Below, piece after piece: positions 6,970-15,066 of a DNA stretch of 36,348 nt. The stretch covers positions 1 to 36,348 of the forward strand of contig JAUYJT010000045.1 in assembly GCA_030700225.1 (NCBI GenBank). The letters run 5' to 3'. The notes under the pieces were generated by a model. The model saw nothing but the letters and a program-made list of their open reading frames with translations, was not told where the DNA came from and made no database searches. The DNA comes from Candidatus Nanopelagicales bacterium. Lineage in GTDB: Bacteria > Actinomycetota > Actinomycetes > S36-B12 > GCA-2699445. The number at the start of each line of letters is the position of its first letter. Positions within the stretch are counted from its first letter, which is position 1. The translations under genes and the position numbers were made by a program.

Positions 6970-7030
6970 TTGGCCCCCGTCCGACTGATGCCGGTCGGTG
7001 CCTGTCGATGCCGACCCCGCCTGCACTTAG

Positions 7031-7125
7031 CGGCCGTTCCCAACAAACGCGACCGTTAGGGTACAGACGCGACCGTTGCAACGCCCGTTTCTTGGCGTAA
7101 CCGTCGCGTCTGTCGGGAACGGCCG
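7031..7125. repeat. 28-bp imperfect inverted repeat with three copies of an 11-bp motif
   Basis: Arms 7031-7058 and 7098-7125 are complementary at 25 of 28 positions, separated by 39 bases. Inside and across the arms an 11-bp motif ACGCGACSGTT occurs three times: direct at 7047-7057 and 7067-7077 (20 bases apart, about two helical turns) and inverted at 7099-7109. A perfect palindrome CGTTGCAACG lies at 7074-7083. The element sits between the divergent aldehyde dehydrogenase and sulfite-reductase promoters. It could be an operator for a dimeric regulator or a small palindromic mobile repeat. There is no target duplication that I can see. Confidence 0.7.
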
Positions 7126-7173
7126 TTTCCGCGGTGGAGAGGGGTGCGGCGAGGGAGCAATCGCCCGGCCGCG

Positions 7174-7203
7174 TTGACGAAGCCGGACCTCGTAGGGCAT
7201 CCT
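7174..7203 (+). promoter_or_regulatory. Promoter of the leaderless cysteine leader peptide
   Basis: TTGACG (7174-7179) and CATCCT (7198-7203) are spaced by 18 bases. The -10 ends seven bases before the ATG at 7211, so the transcript should start at the A of the leader-peptide ATG. This is one of the few promoters in the window with a clear -35. Confidence 0.55.
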
Positions 7204-7210
7204 GTTTGTC

Positions 7211-7282
7211 ATGCGCGTGATGAGCACCGGAGTCGCCCCTGCGGCGGCACCGATGTGCTGCGTCATGTGTTGTCCTGCCTGA
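7211..7282 (+). CDS. Poly-cysteine leader peptide (attenuator uORF)
   Basis: A 23-codon open frame starting at ATG 7211 and ending TGA 7280-7282. Its last ten residues read PMCCVMCCPA, with four cysteines in six codons (7256-7273). It has no ribosome-binding site but a promoter placed for leaderless initiation. Leaderless poly-cysteine short ORFs are established in mycobacteria as cysteine-responsive attenuators in front of sulfite-assimilation operons. The gene here precedes the same kind of operon (nirA-like, cysH, che1) by 102 bases. Inference: when Cys-tRNA is scarce the ribosome stalls on the Cys codons and frees the downstream operon. Too short for ordinary gene calling. Confidence 0.8.
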   Translation: MRVMSTGVAPAAAPMCCVMCCPA

Positions 7283-7344
7283 AGCCCGCCCACTTGGACG
7301 TGCGGCGCTCGGGCAGGGACCTGAACCCGTTGCGCGGGGCAGGA
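7272..7344 (+). promoter_or_regulatory. Alternative RNA hairpins after the leader peptide (attenuator)
   Basis: The end of the leader ORF (GTCCTGCC, 7272-7279) can pair with GGCAGGGAC (7312-7320, one bulge) or with GGCAGGA (7338-7344, perfect 7 bp). CGGGC (7310-7314) can instead pair with GCCCG just after the leader stop (7284-7288). CCCG/CGGG at 7326-7329 and 7335-7338 makes a further small hairpin. These pairings exclude one another, as expected for translation-coupled attenuation. Folding was done by eye only. Confidence 0.5.
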
Positions 7345-7360
7345 TCTCACCCGATCACCA

Positions 7361-7383
7361 GCGTCCGGAATCACCGGAGACGC
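7361..7383 (+). promoter_or_regulatory. Hairpin masking the ribosome-binding site of the first sulfite-reductase gene
   Basis: GCGTCCGG (7361-7368) pairs with CCGG-ag-ACGC (7374-7383) across a five-base loop. The GGAG ribosome-binding site (7376-7379) lies within the 3' strand, five bases before the ATG at 7385. This suggests translation of the operon's first gene can be occluded, complementing the leader peptide upstream. Confidence 0.5.
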
Positions 7384-7384
7384 A

Positions 7385-9061
7385 ATGAAGTCGGACACGC
7401 GGACACTTCAGCAGAGCCGCGCACCCCGTTCCGAGGGCCAATGGGCGCTCGGGGAACTAACGCCCCTGAACAACAGTGAGCGCATCAAAGCTGGGGGAGG
7501 CTTGCTGGATGCCCGCGAGCGCATCGAGCAGATCTACGCGCTAGGCGGCTACGAATCCATACCGCCGGACGACCTGAGAGGTCGCATGCGATGGGCAGGG
7601 GTTCATGTTCAGCGCAGACCAGGGATTCCCGGCGGCAAGACGGCCACGTTGGCTCCTGAGGATCTCGAGGACGAACTCCTCCTGATGAGAGTGCGAATCG
7701 ACGGGGGCGCCCTGTCCAGTGAGCAAGCCCGAGTCCTCGGCGCGATCTCCGAGCGATTCGCCCAGAACACGGCGGACCTATCAGATCGTCAGTGCGTGCA
7801 ACTCCACGGCGTACGAGTTGAGGACACACCCGAGATCTGGCGCATCATGGACTCTGTCGGCCTAACCACCTCAGGATCCTGCGCCGACACCCCCGCCGTG
7901 GTCCTGGGCTCACCGTTAGCCGGAGTCGCGGCTGACGAGATCATTGACGGCACACCCGCCATCGACGAAATCGTCCGTAGATTCGTGGGCACCGAAGAGT
8001 TCTCTAACCTGCCACGCAAGGTGAAGAGCGCCATCTCGGGGGCGCCGGGCGGAGATGTCGTCCACGAGATCAACGACGTCAGCTTCGTCGGCGTGATTCA
8101 CCCCGATCATGGGCCAGGCTTCGACCTGTGGGTCGGCGGAGGTCTATCGAAAGCCCCCAAGCTCGCCCAAAGGCTGGGCACATGGGTGCCTTTGCCGGAG
8201 GTCCCCGAGGTCTGGCAAGCCATCAACGCACTCTTCCGCGATTACGGCTACCGGCGGAACCGAAACAGGGCGCGGATGAAGTTCCTGATCTCCGATTGGG
8301 GGGTTGAGCGTTTCCGTGAGGTGCTCGAATCCGAGTATCTGAACCGGCCCCTGCTCGATGGACCGCCCCCCGAGCGGGTGAAGATCCAGCGAGACTACGT
8401 AGGAGTACACGCGCAACGCGACGGCCTGTTCTATGTCGGGGCGGCGCCGACCGTCGGTCGCCTGTCGGGCACGATCCTGCAGCGCGTAGCGGATCTGGCC
8501 GAGAGCTACGGGTCCGGCCGAATCCGACTCACGATTCACCAGAAGCTCGTGATCCTCGATGTCCCCGGTGAACGAACCGACGAGCTTGCCGCAGAACTTC
8601 TGGAGCTGGGTCTTTACGTCAACCCTTCGCCATTCCGCCGCTCGACCATGGCCTGCACTGGCGTCCAATACTGCAAGTCCGCGATAGCGGAAACCAAGGG
8701 GAGGGCAGCGGCCCTGATCGACGAACTCGAGCGACGCCTGCCGAATCTGGACGTTCCGATCACGATCAGCGTAAACGGCTGCCCAAGCTCCTGCGCCCGC
8801 TTCCAAATAGCCGATATCGGGCTCCGAGGAGTGCTCGTCGCGGGAGATGACGGAACGCAGATCGAGGGGTTCCAAGTTCTGCTCGGCGGATCACTCGGAC
8901 ACAGATCCGCCTTCGGACGCGCGCTGCGGGGGCTTAGGCTCGCGGCTGACGACTTGTCCGACTACGTGGAACGCCTGATCAACCGGTACTTGGCACAGCG
9001 CGGCGACAGCGAGTCGTTCGCCGAATGGACATCACGCGCCGACGAGGAGGCACTGAGATGA
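7385..9061 (+). CDS. Sulfite/nitrite reductase-like protein, divergent paralogue (copy 1)
   Basis: A 558-residue sirohaem-[4Fe-4S] reductase of the NirA type. Cluster/sirohaem ligands are intact: Cys424 and Cys430 in CTGVQYC, Cys466 and Cys470 in GCPSSC. It is clearly paralogous to the gene at 9780 along its whole length. Compared with that copy and with M. tuberculosis NirA (numbers from memory), it differs at the active site. Tyr69 of the Tyr-Cys crosslink is His74 here and Trp66 is Ala71. Arg166 is Ala171 and Trp137 is Gly142. The partner Cys161 (Cys166) and Lys207/209 (Lys212/214) are kept. It may therefore use a different substrate, be a slow enzyme or be non-catalytic. ATG with GGAG; cysH starts within its stop codon. 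Confidence 0.9.
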   Translation: MKSDTRTLQQSRAPRSEGQWALGELTPLNNSERIKAGGGLLDARERIEQIYALGGYESIPPDDLRGRMRWAGVHVQRRPGIPGGKTATLAPEDLEDELLLMRVRIDGGALSSEQARVLGAISERFAQNTADLSDRQCVQLHGVRVEDTPEIWRIMDSVGLTTSGSCADTPAVVLGSPLAGVAADEIIDGTPAIDEIVRRFVGTEEFSNLPRKVKSAISGAPGGDVVHEINDVSFVGVIHPDHGPGFDLWVGGGLSKAPKLAQRLGTWVPLPEVPEVWQAINALFRDYGYRRNRNRARMKFLISDWGVERFREVLESEYLNRPLLDGPPPERVKIQRDYVGVHAQRDGLFYVGAAPTVGRLSGTILQRVADLAESYGSGRIRLTIHQKLVILDVPGERTDELAAELLELGLYVNPSPFRRSTMACTGVQYCKSAIAETKGRAAALIDELERRLPNLDVPITISVNGCPSSCARFQIADIGLRGVLVAGDDGTQIEGFQVLLGGSLGHRSAFGRALRGLRLAADDLSDYVERLINRYLAQRGDSESFAEWTSRADEEALR

Positions 9062-9783
9062 CGGACGTAGACCTGCTGCCGACGCGCCGCAGCACCGACC
9101 ACTTGCGTGCGCTCGCAGACGAGGGAGCGGCGATCTTCGGAGAAGAACCGGACCCGACAGAGTTGCTTGAATGGTTCGGTAGCGCCTTGGGCATCGATCG
9201 CATCGCCGTGGCCGTGTCGTTCTCCGACGGAGTGATGGCGCATCTGGCCGGGCATGCATTACCAGGCGTGGACCTCCTATTCGTCGACACCGGATACCAC
9301 TTCGCCGAGACCCTGGGCCTTCGCGAGGCAGTCGCGGCGACACTGCCGGTCAACGTTCGTTCCCTGACACCGGAGCAAACTCACGCCGAACTTGACGAAC
9401 AGTTCGGCGAGAACCTCTGGGAGCGCGACCCGGACTTGTGCTGCGCGATCCGCAAGACAGCACCGATGGCCGCGGCTCTGAGGGGCTACGACGCCTGGGC
9501 AACGGGACTTAGGCGCAGCGACCACGACGGCCGCGCCCAAACCCCGGTCGTGCACTGGGATGACACCAACGGGCTCATCAAGATCAATCCGATCGCGGCG
9601 TTCACCGACGGGGATCTGGAAACCCACATCCAGGAGCACTCGATCATGGAGAACCCCCTCAAACAGATCGGATACCGCTCCATCGGCTGCGCCCCCTGCA
9701 CCAGAGCCGTCGAAGCGGGCGAGGACGAACGGGCCGGACGCTGGGCCGGGCGCGCGAAAACGGAGTGCGGACTTCACCTGTGA
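9058..9783 (+). CDS. cysH: Adenylylsulfate (APS) reductase
   Basis: A 241-residue cytosolic enzyme that reduces adenylylsulfate to sulfite in assimilatory sulfate reduction. The [4Fe-4S] cysteine set of the bacterial APS type is present: Cys128-Cys129 (DLCCAIRK) and Cys211/Cys214 (GCAPC). The catalytic Cys237 lies in the C-terminal ECGLH. The nucleotide-binding loop reads SFSDGVMAHLA. The ATG at 9058 overlaps the upstream stop (ATGA) and has GGAGG ahead of it. The next gene's GTG overlaps this stop. No ATP sulfurylase genes (cysD/cysN) occur in the window, so activation of sulfate must be encoded elsewhere. Confidence 0.95.
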   Translation: MTDVDLLPTRRSTDHLRALADEGAAIFGEEPDPTELLEWFGSALGIDRIAVAVSFSDGVMAHLAGHALPGVDLLFVDTGYHFAETLGLREAVAATLPVNVRSLTPEQTHAELDEQFGENLWERDPDLCCAIRKTAPMAAALRGYDAWATGLRRSDHDGRAQTPVVHWDDTNGLIKINPIAAFTDGDLETHIQEHSIMENPLKQIGYRSIGCAPCTRAVEAGEDERAGRWAGRAKTECGLHL

Positions 9784-11444
9784 CCGCCCTGACCAGTCGC
9801 AAGCCCCGCACTGAGGGCCAGTGGGCTCTCGGCCAGACGGACCCTCTGAACGACATCGAGCGCATCAAGGCCACGGGAGACCCGCTGGCCGTTCGCGAGC
9901 GGGTCGAGCAGGTCTACTCGCGAACGGGGCTTCGATCGATCCCGCTCGACGATCTACGGGGCCGCATGCGGTGGTGGGGCCTTTACACCCAGCGCAGACC
10001 GGGGATCCCAGCGTGGAAGATGGGGTCAGTCCCGCTGGACGAGCTTGAGGATGAGGTCCTGCTGTGGAGGATCCGCACCGACGGCGGAGCCCTGACGAGC
10101 GAGCAGGCCCGCGTCCTCGGCGGAATCTCGCAGGAGTTCGCGCGAGACACGGCGGACATCTCAGACCGCCAGAACATCCAGTTCCACTGGATCCGCGTTG
10201 AGGACACCCCGGAGATCTGGCGACGTTTGGACTCAGTCGGGCTAACTACGGCCGGGGCGTGCGGCGACACTTCGCGGGTCGTGCTGGGCTCTCCGCTCGC
10301 TGGCGTGGCGGCCGACGAGATCGTGGACGCCACGCCCGCCATCGCGGAGATCGCGAGGCGGTTCGTCGGCAGCGAGGAGTTCTCGAACCTGCCTCGGAAG
10401 TTCAAGAGCGCGATCTCCGGATCGCCCCGTGGAGACGTAGTCCACGAACTCAATGACATCAGCTTCGTCGGAGTGATCCACCCCGATCATGGGCCCGGCT
10501 TCGACCTCTGGGTGGGAGGCGGCCTGGCCGCCGCTCCGAAGCTGGCGGTACGGCTGGGTGCCTGGGTCCCGCTGGCAGAGGTACCGGAAGTCTGGCGGGC
10601 AGTGACCTCAGTCTTCCGTGACTACGGCTATCGCAGGAACCGTAACCGGGCTCGGATGAAGTTCCTTGTCACCGAATGGGGTCCGGACAAGTTCCGCGCG
10701 GTCCTGGAAACCGAGTATCTGAAACGGCCACTGATTGACGGCCCGCCTCCGCCCCAAACCGCGACCGGCCAGCGCGACTACGTTGGCGTCGCACCACAGC
10801 GCGATGGCCTGTTCTATGTAGGAGCCGCCCCAACCGTGGGCCGCCTGTCCGGAACGGTTCTGAAGCGTGTTGCCGACCTCGCGGAGGAGTACGGCTCAGG
10901 GCGCATCAGGCTGACCGTCCAGCAGAACCTAGTGATCCTGGATGTGCCCGGCGACCGCACCGCCGACCTGTCCGCCGAATTGCTCAGATCCGGCTTGCGC
11001 GTAGACGCATCGGGATTCCGCCGCCTTGCCATGGCCTGCACCGGTATTGAGTACTGCAAGATGGCGATCACTGAGACGAAGGCTCGCACGGCCGCGCTCC
11101 TCGACGAGCTAGAGCGCCGATTGCCCGACGTGGATGTTCCCATCGCGATCCACGTCAACGGATGCCCCAACTCGTGTGCGCGTTTCCAGGTCGCGGACAT
11201 CGGGCTTCGCGGAGTACTGGTCCAAGACGACGCCGGGCACCCGGCAGAAGGATTCCAAGTCACGCTAGGCGGATCGCTGGGGGAACGGTCAGGATTCGGG
11301 CGCACCCCGCGTGGGCTTCGCCTGGCCGCGGACGATCTGCCGGACTACGTCGATCGCGTAGTGACCCGGTACCTGACCGCGCGAGGCAAGAACGAGTCAT
11401 TCGCCGAATGGACTTCACGCGCGGACGAGGACGCACTGAGGTGA
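9780..11444 (+). CDS. nirA: Sirohaem-dependent sulfite reductase (NirA type, copy 2)
   Basis: A 554-residue assimilatory sulfite reductase taking electrons from ferredoxin to make sulfide. Cluster ligands are CTGIEYC and GCPNSC. With the GTG at 9780 its numbering matches M. tuberculosis NirA as I remember it: Tyr69 in WWGLYTQR, Cys161 in TTAGACGD (the covalent Tyr-Cys pair), Arg97, Arg166, Lys207 and Lys209 for the anion. This agreement and the GTGA overlap with cysH support that start; a GTG at 9765 is also open. It is the canonical copy, in the known order nirA-cysH-che1 apart from being downstream of cysH. The copy at 7385 is its divergent paralogue. Confidence 0.94.
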   Translation: MTALTSRKPRTEGQWALGQTDPLNDIERIKATGDPLAVRERVEQVYSRTGLRSIPLDDLRGRMRWWGLYTQRRPGIPAWKMGSVPLDELEDEVLLWRIRTDGGALTSEQARVLGGISQEFARDTADISDRQNIQFHWIRVEDTPEIWRRLDSVGLTTAGACGDTSRVVLGSPLAGVAADEIVDATPAIAEIARRFVGSEEFSNLPRKFKSAISGSPRGDVVHELNDISFVGVIHPDHGPGFDLWVGGGLAAAPKLAVRLGAWVPLAEVPEVWRAVTSVFRDYGYRRNRNRARMKFLVTEWGPDKFRAVLETEYLKRPLIDGPPPPQTATGQRDYVGVAPQRDGLFYVGAAPTVGRLSGTVLKRVADLAEEYGSGRIRLTVQQNLVILDVPGDRTADLSAELLRSGLRVDASGFRRLAMACTGIEYCKMAITETKARTAALLDELERRLPDVDVPIAIHVNGCPNSCARFQVADIGLRGVLVQDDAGHPAEGFQVTLGGSLGERSGFGRTPRGLRLAADDLPDYVDRVVTRYLTARGKNESFAEWTSRADEDALR

Positions 11445-12106
11445 CACACGGCGCGGTCGTGCTGATAGCGCACGGCAGCGAAGACAGCAGACATCGTTCC
11501 GCCATCGCCGACATCGCTTCAGCGATTCAGCAGCGGACCTCGGTCTCGATCGCGGTCGCGTACCTTCAGCACAACCGGCCCTCACCCGCCGAAGCGGCCG
11601 CACGCTTGCGTTCGCCCGCTATGTTGCCGCTCCTGCTCGCCGCGGGCGCCCACTGGGCCAGAGACGTCAGCCTGGCGCTGCGCGGAATCGAGCCGACACC
11701 TCGACTCATCGAACCGCCAACACCGGTTCAGCTCGTTCCGGCCGTCATCGAAGCGGTTAGCTCGCTGCGAGAAGGGGGCGAAACGGTAGTTCTGGCCGTC
11801 GCGGGCAGCACCGCCAACGATCAATCCAGGCACTTCCAGCCGCTCGCGACCGCCGTCGCGGCCTCGCTCGGCACCACATGCTCAGTCGCTCCTAGCCCGG
11901 AGGCGGTGCGCGGGCTCGCGTCCCCCGGAGCGGTCATCGTACCCATCCTGACTTCTCCGGGATTCCTCGACGACCGAATCCGCGCCCAGGCCAGCCAGGC
12001 TGGGGCCCAGGCCACCGCGACCGTCGGGTCAACCTCGTCTTTCGTACAGATCCTCAGCGACCTCGTGCGGGCCGCAACCAGGCCGAGTAGTTCGGAACAA
12101 GCCTGA
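11441..12106 (+). CDS. Sirohydrochlorin chelatase (CbiX/SirB-like, Che1)
   Basis: A 221-residue chelatase that would insert Fe2+ into sirohydrochlorin as the last step of sirohaem synthesis, feeding both sulfite reductases. It has two CbiX-like halves: residues 1-100 with the metal-binding His in VLIAHGSEDSRH and residues 105-215 beginning VVLAVAGSTANDQSRH. In the second half Gly-Ser replaces the catalytic His, as in other two-domain actinobacterial members. The GTG at 11441 overlaps the upstream TGA (GTGA), so it is translationally coupled. A cobalt-specific role is less likely because no other cobalamin genes are present. Confidence 0.85.
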   Translation: MTHGAVVLIAHGSEDSRHRSAIADIASAIQQRTSVSIAVAYLQHNRPSPAEAAARLRSPAMLPLLLAAGAHWARDVSLALRGIEPTPRLIEPPTPVQLVPAVIEAVSSLREGGETVVLAVAGSTANDQSRHFQPLATAVAASLGTTCSVAPSPEAVRGLASPGAVIVPILTSPGFLDDRIRAQASQAGAQATATVGSTSSFVQILSDLVRAATRPSSSEQA

Positions 12107-13822: not shown

Positions 13823-13840
13823 ACAGATCCGCGTCAGGTG
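13816..13840. terminator. Palindrome spanning two convergent stop codons
   Basis: CACCTGA (13816-13822) and TCAGGTG (13834-13840) form a perfect 7-bp inverted repeat with an 11-base loop. Each arm contains the TGA stop of one of the convergent genes. A bidirectional terminator is plausible, although neither side has a T-run. Confidence 0.4.
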
Positions 13841-15066
13841 TCGACGACCCGGCGGACCTCGCCCAGGACATCGGGCATGCCCGCCACGGCCCCGATCACT
13901 ATTACTGCGGGCGGCTTGATACAAGCCGAACGGGCATCGGCCGCGGCGGAAGCCAGATCTGACCGAACGATGCGCTGCTCGGGAGTCCACCCTCGCTCGA
14001 CGATGACGACTGGAGTGCTCGGGTCGCGACCAGCCCCAATCAGCATCGATGCCGTCGCGTCAAGGCGCGATACCCCCATCAGCAGCACGAGCGTCGTCGC
14101 CGGTCCGCACGCCAGCGCCTCCCGAGCCGCCTCGTGTCCCGACGCGACCATGAACGAGGTGCTAAGCCCCCTCTGGGTGACGGGAACGCCAGCAGCAGCC
14201 GGGACCGCTACGGCGGAAGTGACGCCTGGAACCCACTCGACAGCGACTCCATGGGCCAAACAGTGCCGCGCCTCTTCCCCCCCGCGACCCAGCACAAACG
14301 GATCGCCGCCCTTCAAGCGAACGACCGCAAGCCCAGCCTTGGCGTTCTCCACGAGGATCTCGTTGATCTCCTCCTGCTGAACTTGATGCCTGCCGGGCTG
14401 TTTGCCTACGTCGATCACGCGCACGTCGTCGGGAACATCTGACACAAGCTCGGGCGGAACAAGCCGATCGGTAACAATGACGTCGGCCAGCGACAGCAGT
14501 TGGCGTCCGCGAACCGTAATCAACCCGGCGTCACCCGGACCCGCCCCCACCAGCGCCACCCATCCCGTCCCACCCAGCCGGCGGCGACGTACAGGCAGAC
14601 TCCCGCTTGCCAGCGCGTCGGACACGGCTGAGGCCAGCGCACGGGCCCTGGTCGGATCGCCCCCGCCGCTGACGGCCACCGAGACGCCGTCCGGGCCCTG
14701 GGCCGCCGCTGCGACCCAGGCTGGCGAATCCTTTGACGACGCCGCGTCGACACACCAGACGCCGGCGGCCTCAGCCTCCGCAGCCACTGCCAGATCCGTG
14801 TCTGTTCCCGTGGCAGTGTGTACCAGCCATGGGCGTCCGGACGCGAGCACATCACCGGCCCGGAACTCCCGTTCCAGCCAAGACAGCTCACCGAGGTCGG
14901 CCAGCTCCCCGATTCTGGGTCCGGCCCGCGGCGCGATAACAGTCACGACGGCACCGCGCTCAAGGAGTCCTTGGATCCGGCGCTCTCCGAGTCGGCCAGC
15001 ACCCACGCACAACACCGGGCGACCCTCAATGTCGAGGAAGACGCCCAGTCGGGGAGCTTTGCCCAT
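13834..15066 (-). CDS. cysG: Sirohaem synthase: precorrin-2 dehydrogenase fused to uroporphyrinogen-III C-methyltransferase
   Basis: A 410-residue two-part enzyme making sirohydrochlorin from uroporphyrinogen III. Residues 1-160 are the NAD-dependent dehydrogenase with GAGRLGER (22-29). Residues from about 167 are the SAM-dependent methyltransferase: VALVGAGPGDAGLITVRG, RLKGGDPFVLGRGGEE and a PGVTSAVAVPAAAGVPVT segment. Length is shorter than E. coli CysG (457). Chelation is probably left to the CbiX-like protein at 11441. The ATG at 15066 is preceded by TAGCCT with a six-base gap (leaderless). It converges with the ABC permease. Confidence 0.93.
   Translation of the reverse strand: MGKAPRLGVFLDIEGRPVLCVGAGRLGERRIQGLLERGAVVTVIAPRAGPRIGELADLGELSWLEREFRAGDVLASGRPWLVHTATGTDTDLAVAAEAEAAGVWCVDAASSKDSPAWVAAAAQGPDGVSVAVSGGGDPTRARALASAVSDALASGSLPVRRRRLGGTGWVALVGAGPGDAGLITVRGRQLLSLADVIVTDRLVPPELVSDVPDDVRVIDVGKQPGRHQVQQEEINEILVENAKAGLAVVRLKGGDPFVLGRGGEEARHCLAHGVAVEWVPGVTSAVAVPAAAGVPVTQRGLSTSFMVASGHEAAREALACGPATTLVLLMGVSRLDATASMLIGAGRDPSTPVVIVERGWTPEQRIVRSDLASAAADARSACIKPPAVIVIGAVAGMPDVLGEVRRVVDT

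Follow-up and report, generated by a model that had tools for sequence, protein, structure and literature searches.

A candidate cysteine-sensing poly-Cys leader ahead of a two-copy sulfite-reduction operon in an actinobacterium

Does an open reading frame (ORF) of only 23 codons that ends in a run of cysteine codons control the sulfite-reduction operon behind it, and by what means might it do so? The question is raised by a stretch of DNA of 36,348 nucleotides from a Candidatus Nanopelagicales bacterium (hereafter the window, whose positions are used throughout). Leaderless short ORFs, either Cys-rich or Cys-containing, were described before nirA/Msmeg_4527 and cysA2 (PMC4633059). Two papers (PMC9031893, PMC13236596) credit Canestrari 2020 (PMID 32181921) with the finding that leaderless poly-Cys ORFs of M. 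smegmatis attenuate in response to Cys, and the former states that such ORFs regulate downstream translation through the speed of the ribosome on Cys codons. An earlier comparative study proposed candidate Cys leaders for Mycobacterium, P. acnes and B. longum and found no conserved hairpin in them (Seliverstov 2005, PMC1262725).

The leader ORF of the window runs from an ATG at 7211 to a TGA at 7282 and carries its Cys codons in two pairs close to the stop:

7211-7282, + strand: poly-Cys leader peptide, putatively leaderless, MRVMSTGVAPAAAPMCCVMCCPA, with the C-terminal end MCCVMCCPA
7256-7261 and 7268-7273, + strand: Cys codons TGC TGC and TGT TGT of the leader, found in the same place in the related loci L003-L007, L010 and L012

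The 23-codon ORF ending in PMCCVMCCPA that the initial annotation had placed at 7211-7282 is present, with MRVMSTGVAPAAAPMCCVMCCPA* as its translation. Dinucleotide-shuffled windows give an expectation of 0.02 Cys-tailed short ORFs per 36 kb, a Cys tail being defined as at least four Cys among the last nine residues. The nucleotide pattern TGYTGYN{0,12}TGYTGY has 90 matches in the whole 2.6-Mb genome, which is below the count of the reversed-pattern control; among these matches, of which the Cys-frame ones were checked, a short ORF with both a start codon and a −10-like element is found only at 7211-7282. A whole-genome pattern search, which low-Cys leaders could escape, returned no convincing second poly-Cys leader, RRHVD-type leader or NF042934 match, and no leader precedes cysD or cysK-cysE in this genome. 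Since no sister leaders were found there, a multi-operon set of Cys responses is not seen in the window's genome. Two longer ORFs overlap the leader, at 7027-7398 on the − strand and at 7144-7479 on the + strand; neither has a Pfam match, and both were taken as non-coding.

The initial annotation had named the conservation of the Cys codons in related genomes as the check to be made, and the codons are kept: a Cys-containing leader stands at the equivalent site in all eight genomes of the family that have the gene, i.e., that of the window and seven others. The leaders of these seven are MRSATTTAPVMCCCMCCSA, MRSATTTSPVMCCCMCCSA, VLAVSDLKNMPNGMRCCMCCCS, VTYCSTAISAAGPTARGVRCCMCCCS, VLTAGVIRDMPYGMRCCMCCCS, VSIKTSGPQSQNLRLVRQPEFFMCCMS and VYTLRPADGLPRVCAMCEMP, and the Cys-bearing segments of the family include RCCMCCCS, MCCCMCCSA, FFMCCMS and CAMCEMP. 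Ahead of the Cys codons the peptide sequence varies among these leaders and an RRHVD motif is absent, while the run of Cys codons is retained. The window leader thereby shows the clustered, conserved Cys codons near the stop by which the attenuator class is recognized.

Outside this family the leader looks different. A scan of upstream regions that covered the order, a sample of the class and 80 named loci (nearly all Streptomyces) gave a candidate leader upstream of the sulfite-reductase gene in 156 loci, and the typical leader elsewhere in the class reads LVxRRHVDxxRxxSAxC. The RRHVDxxRxxSAxC core is strongly conserved class-wide (e.g., in L033, L127 and L172), often with a single Cys codon. 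From identical leader peptides we infer that the genus labelled g48 is Streptomyces, which would put the window in the same class. Two profile models of the National Center for Biotechnology Information (NCBI) were used for comparison, namely NF042936 (leader_Ms4527A, cut-off 45 bits) and NF042934 (cis_reg_atten, cut-off 27 bits). Four leaders of family f9 exceed the former at 50-56 bits, serving as a positive control, and a Streptomyces leader passes the latter at 32.9 bits. The window peptide gives no match to either at E ≤ 1, and matches no NCBI leader model. The peptide of L003 was profile-scored with one extra residue, owing to a 20-residue minimum, and its lack of a match was never used alone.

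A leaderless leader requires a promoter immediately in front of its start codon, and a candidate can be read there:

7174-7203, + strand: leader promoter, with the −35 element TTGACG at 7174-7179, an 18-nt spacer and the −10 element CATCCT at 7198-7203

The TTGACG-18-CATCCT promoter asserted earlier is in this sense borne out, its support being comparative and its −10 element weak. CATCCT, which ends 7 nt from the leader ATG, matches TATAAT at three of six positions, and because of this weak −10 element a generic sigma-70 scan misses the promoter of the window. In the family, a sequence resembling GGCATNNT precedes the start codon by 6-7 nt, and most members have TTGAC about 18 nt upstream of that sequence; expressed as NANNNT, the element is separated from the RTG by 6 nt in most members and by 7 nt in the window. 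The −11 A and the −7 T are common to 73-74 of the 75 Streptomyces leaders. The leaderless promoter geometry, as judged from sequence, is conserved, suggesting that the leader mRNA begins at the ATG at 7211.

Directly upstream of this promoter lies an imperfect palindrome of about 95 nt (7031-7125) whose hairpin has a predicted energy of −53.7 kcal/mol. It is a dispersed repeat with at least 40 copies in the genome at about 80-90% identity (68 candidates, 40 scored), and it is almost absent from 19 relatives, with one partial match in G002; it resembles a REP or MITE and seems restricted to the window's lineage. A tRNA-Arg (CCG) gene is found at 430-503 on the − strand.

Downstream of the leader, the following genes form the operon in question:

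7385-9061, + strand: SiR1, ferredoxin-type sulfite/nitrite reductase, NirA/SirA-like (Pfam NIR_SIR, NIR_SIR_ferr; NCBIfam)
9058-9783, + strand: CysH, PAPS/APS reductase (Pfam PAPS_reduct; NF002537 above cut-off), ATGA overlap with SiR1
9780-11444, + strand: SiR2, second sulfite reductase, in-paralogue of SiR1, GTGA overlap with cysH
11441-12106, + strand: CbiX-domain protein, sirohydrochlorin chelatase-like (Pfam CbiX, 3.5e-11), GTGA overlap with SiR2

The gap from the leader stop to the SiR1 ATG at 7385 spans 7283-7384 and measures the 102 nt that had been claimed for it. The term "two-copy operon" is likewise correct for SiR1-cysH-SiR2-cbiX, because each gene overlaps the next by ATGA or GTGA and the two reductases are 73% identical. 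SiR1 and SiR2 pair in the tree with a support of 100/100, the SiR1 branch being the longer (0.34 vs. 0.20), and the CX5C/CX3C Fe-S ligands are kept in both. The side-by-side duplication flanking cysH occurs only in the window's genome among the relatives searched, so leaders of this kind are not specific to operons with two copies. What the leader heads is a cysteine/sulfur-metabolism operon, as is characteristic of leaderless poly-Cys attenuators. Near the operon, a siroheme synthase CysG-like gene with uroporphyrinogen methyltransferase and NAD-binding domains lies at 13834-15066 on the − strand.

How the leader could act on SiR1 depends on the RNA between them, for which the folds and the alignment of seven family members (A1) give these elements:

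7274-7290, + strand: element 1, comprising the last two codons, the stop and the next 8 nt (CCUGCCUGAAGCCCGCC), from predicted folds
7294-7301, + strand: element 2, UUGGACGU, the 5′ arm of the anti-sequestor, predicted to pair with 7361-7368
7294-7368, + strand: predicted anti-sequestor, a long imperfect stem from the post-leader to the pre-Shine-Dalgarno segment that leaves the Shine-Dalgarno sequence (SD) unpaired
7361-7383, + strand: predicted sequestor hairpin, GCGUCCGG-AAUCA-CCGGAGACGC, −9.3 kcal/mol
7376-7379, + strand: SiR1 SD, GGAG, beginning 9 nt before the ATG at 7385

According to the predicted folds, element 1 pairs with approximately 7304-7320 if free of ribosomes, and most relatives have its equivalent as a conserved CGUCC:GGACG helix just past the stop (A1). 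The GGACG of element 2 is invariant in the seven family members, and the GCGUCC of element 3 is retained amid otherwise variable sequence in the same number of members. Full folds pair element 3 (7361-7368) with the SiR1 SD, i.e., element 4, to give the sequestor. The anti-sequestor, in which the SD is unpaired, is the main stem of an isolated fold of −41.1 kcal/mol (z −3.0; 1 of 100 shuffles as good), and the two structures are mutually exclusive in the predicted folds. No intrinsic terminator (a hairpin with a T-run) was found in 7050-7500, so that in this respect the locus departs from the classical trp-type attenuator. Rfam gave nothing relevant at gathering score, the window yielding only a tRNA and the leader region two sub-threshold matches to miRNA families. 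In the family, the Cys-codon stretch UGCAUGU could also base-pair with an ACGUGCR that lies past element 2 (columns 7-13 with 49-55 of A1, about 7262-7267 with 7298-7304 in the window), which may constitute an extra competing helix.

Comparative evidence for the 2:3 pairing was obtained in two ways. The consensus fold of the seven-member family alignment found the 2:3 helix unprompted, and a helix as long was reached in 1 of 3000 column shuffles. The 13-pair structure shows 14 changes on both sides of a pair, compared with 5.5 for shuffles, none of 500 of which equalled it, a count made on the same alignment from which that structure was derived. These compensatory changes lie in the outer helices of the anti-sequestor; within the 6-pair 2:3 helix taken by itself, the family alignment has no such changes, since element 2 hardly varies among its members. 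The covariation evidence is therefore that of the outer pairs and of a swap test, in which the duplex energies of each post-leader segment with every pre-SD segment were double-centred and own partners were compared with permuted ones. Over 23 loci of the order, own partners are favoured by 3.89 kcal/mol, a margin reached in 0 of 5000 permutations (sd 0.75), and with one locus per genus the test gives p 0.0002; none of six coding-region controls gives a signal. For the 6 loci of the family the advantage is 2.51 kcal/mol with p 0.014, and for 48 loci elsewhere in the class it is 1.92 kcal/mol (0 of 5000), the signal being absent by this test in ten Streptomyces loci. The complementarity between element 3 and the SD gives a weaker signal, with p 0.007 over the order and no significance within the family. 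Read in this way, the comparative evidence for a predicted RNA switch is strong within the order and less so across the class.

Together, these observations suggest that the leader is probably a Cys-sensing element, translated from the very 5′ end of the mRNA, which controls the translation of SiR1-cysH-SiR2-cbiX via SD sequestration. When charged tRNA-Cys is plentiful, ribosomes would complete the leader and depart, the ribosome-free leader would form the 1:2 pairing, and the 3:4 sequestor would close the SiR1 SD, leading to low translation. When Cys is short, a ribosome would dwell on TGC TGC .. TGT TGT and cover element 1, thus freeing element 2 (GGACG, 7296-7300) to pair with element 3 (GCGUCC, 7361-7366) and exposing the SD at 7376-7379. 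The NTGA overlaps would then hand initiation on to cysH, SiR2 and cbiX. Canestrari and coworkers reportedly found that ribosomes stalled in a poly-Cys tract release a sequestered ribosome-binding site.

The proposed switch was modelled by masking the ribosome footprint and computing pairing probabilities. Upon masking, the 2:3 pairing rises from 0 to about 0.94-1.0 in L005 and L006, with best values of about 0.99 and 1.0, respectively, and from 0 to 0.58-0.86 in L010, with an effective leading edge of the footprint about 15-21 nt beyond the last Cys codon in these three loci. Opening of the SD was obtained in the model for L005 and L010, where the modelled switching is strong, and little or inconsistent opening for L003, L004, L006, L007 and L012. 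In the window, Cys-stalled ribosomes raise the SD openness from 0.39 to no more than 0.54 if 20 nt of the coding region are included, and 45 nt give no change. A simple footprint model shows no switch for the window, and other edges and 3′ ends keep the effect small. Because of this small effect, the mechanism is held at moderate confidence. In addition, occlusion at the stop codon acts in the model much like a stall at Cys, so only the dwell time could tell the two apart. The folding models back the switch in two or three relatives and weakly in the window. The conserved RNA elements are well supported, and the window's own RNA may switch in the same manner.

Other accounts of the leader differ in where they place its output. 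In transcription attenuation, fast translation of the leader would expose the gap to Rho or to a hairpin, and a ribosome stalled at Cys would prevent the stop; such attenuation has been proposed for the mycobacterial cys leaders because C/U-rich tracts but no terminators were found there (PMC1262725). For the window this seems unlikely, as no terminator-like site was found in 7050-7500 and the folds predict a hairpin that sequesters the SD. The covariation with the pre-SD segment also counts against it, because it is the translational switch that needs that segment. The output is thus likely to be translational, through SD sequestration. A different sensor, namely a nascent arrest peptide that responds to Cys or to the redox state rather than to starvation for Cys codons, would agree with the RRHVDxxRxxSAxC peptide conserved in most of the class, which often has only one Cys and fits a role of the amino acid sequence; starvation for Cys codons does not by itself readily account for such leaders, and this points to a role of their nascent peptide. 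However, in the window's own family the motif is absent, the sequence before the Cys codons varies and the run of Cys codons is kept, which makes an arrest peptide quite improbable at this locus.

That the ORF encodes a functional small peptide that binds a metal or a thiol in trans is very improbable. CCxxCC could conceivably bind a metal, but the position is fixed near the predicted mRNA 5′ end while the rest of the peptide varies, and the ORF keeps a fixed relation to the downstream RNA elements. Short ORFs are common, and one might arise by chance in GC-rich intergenic DNA, yet this is hardly conceivable for the leader in view of its shuffle expectation per window and of its uniqueness in the genome by the criteria used. 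The conservation of a Cys leader in every family genome with the gene refutes it, and the leader is not a chance ORF. The reading in terms of Cys-codon sensing and SD sequestration is therefore preferred.

A broader idea, offered tentatively as possible rather than probable, is that one RNA switch, the pairing of the post-leader with the pre-SD segment, is used across much of the class with two sensors, namely a conserved RRHVDxxRxxSAxC peptide with as few as one Cys (perhaps an arrest peptide) and, in the window's family, a plain run of Cys codons. If true, one sensor would have replaced another in this family while the switch was kept, implying that the RNA and the sensing parts evolve separately. 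Whether the single-Cys leaders with a conserved core sense cysteine as the Cys-run leaders would do has become a testable question. If the leader acts as proposed, the control of sulfite reduction by cysteine codons, known from mycobacteria, would reach into a distant actinobacterial family, whose peptide is of a type that current annotation models miss. It also provides comparative evidence for a specific RNA switch, in contrast to the earlier comparison of mycobacterial cys leaders, which found no conserved hairpin.

Among the known systems, the mycobacterial Ms4527A leader (NF042936) is similar in standing before a NirA/SirA-type reductase, in its leaderless start (a predicted one in the window) and in its Cys codons by the stop, and Cys sensing is presumed for the window as well. 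However, peptides that pass this model end in RRHVDxKRVCSCCCLP, and the window peptide is without RRHVD. The NF042934 "putative leader peptide" occupies the same site before sulfite reductase, both in Streptomyces and in families of the window's order other than its own; unlike the window peptide, these leaders have a conserved RRHVD..SAxC core, often with a single Cys. With the attenuators of M. smegmatis (cysA2/Msmeg_5788 and others), the window leader shares a Cys run near the stop of an ORF that heads a Cys-metabolism operon, whereas M. smegmatis has such leaders at several operons and the pattern search of the window's genome found no second one. The candidates of Seliverstov 2005 (PMC1262725), which precede cys or cbs genes, likewise have a Cys run close to the stop and no obvious terminator; no conserved hairpin was found for them, in contrast to the conserved sequestor/anti-sequestor proposed here. 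The initial annotation had described the locus as the mycobacterial nirA device in another actinobacterium. The kind of device holds up, while the peptide is of a poly-Cys type and does not belong to the Ms4527A family. The principle is thus already known from mycobacteria, and the window is a distinct poly-Cys version of it from another actinobacterial lineage.
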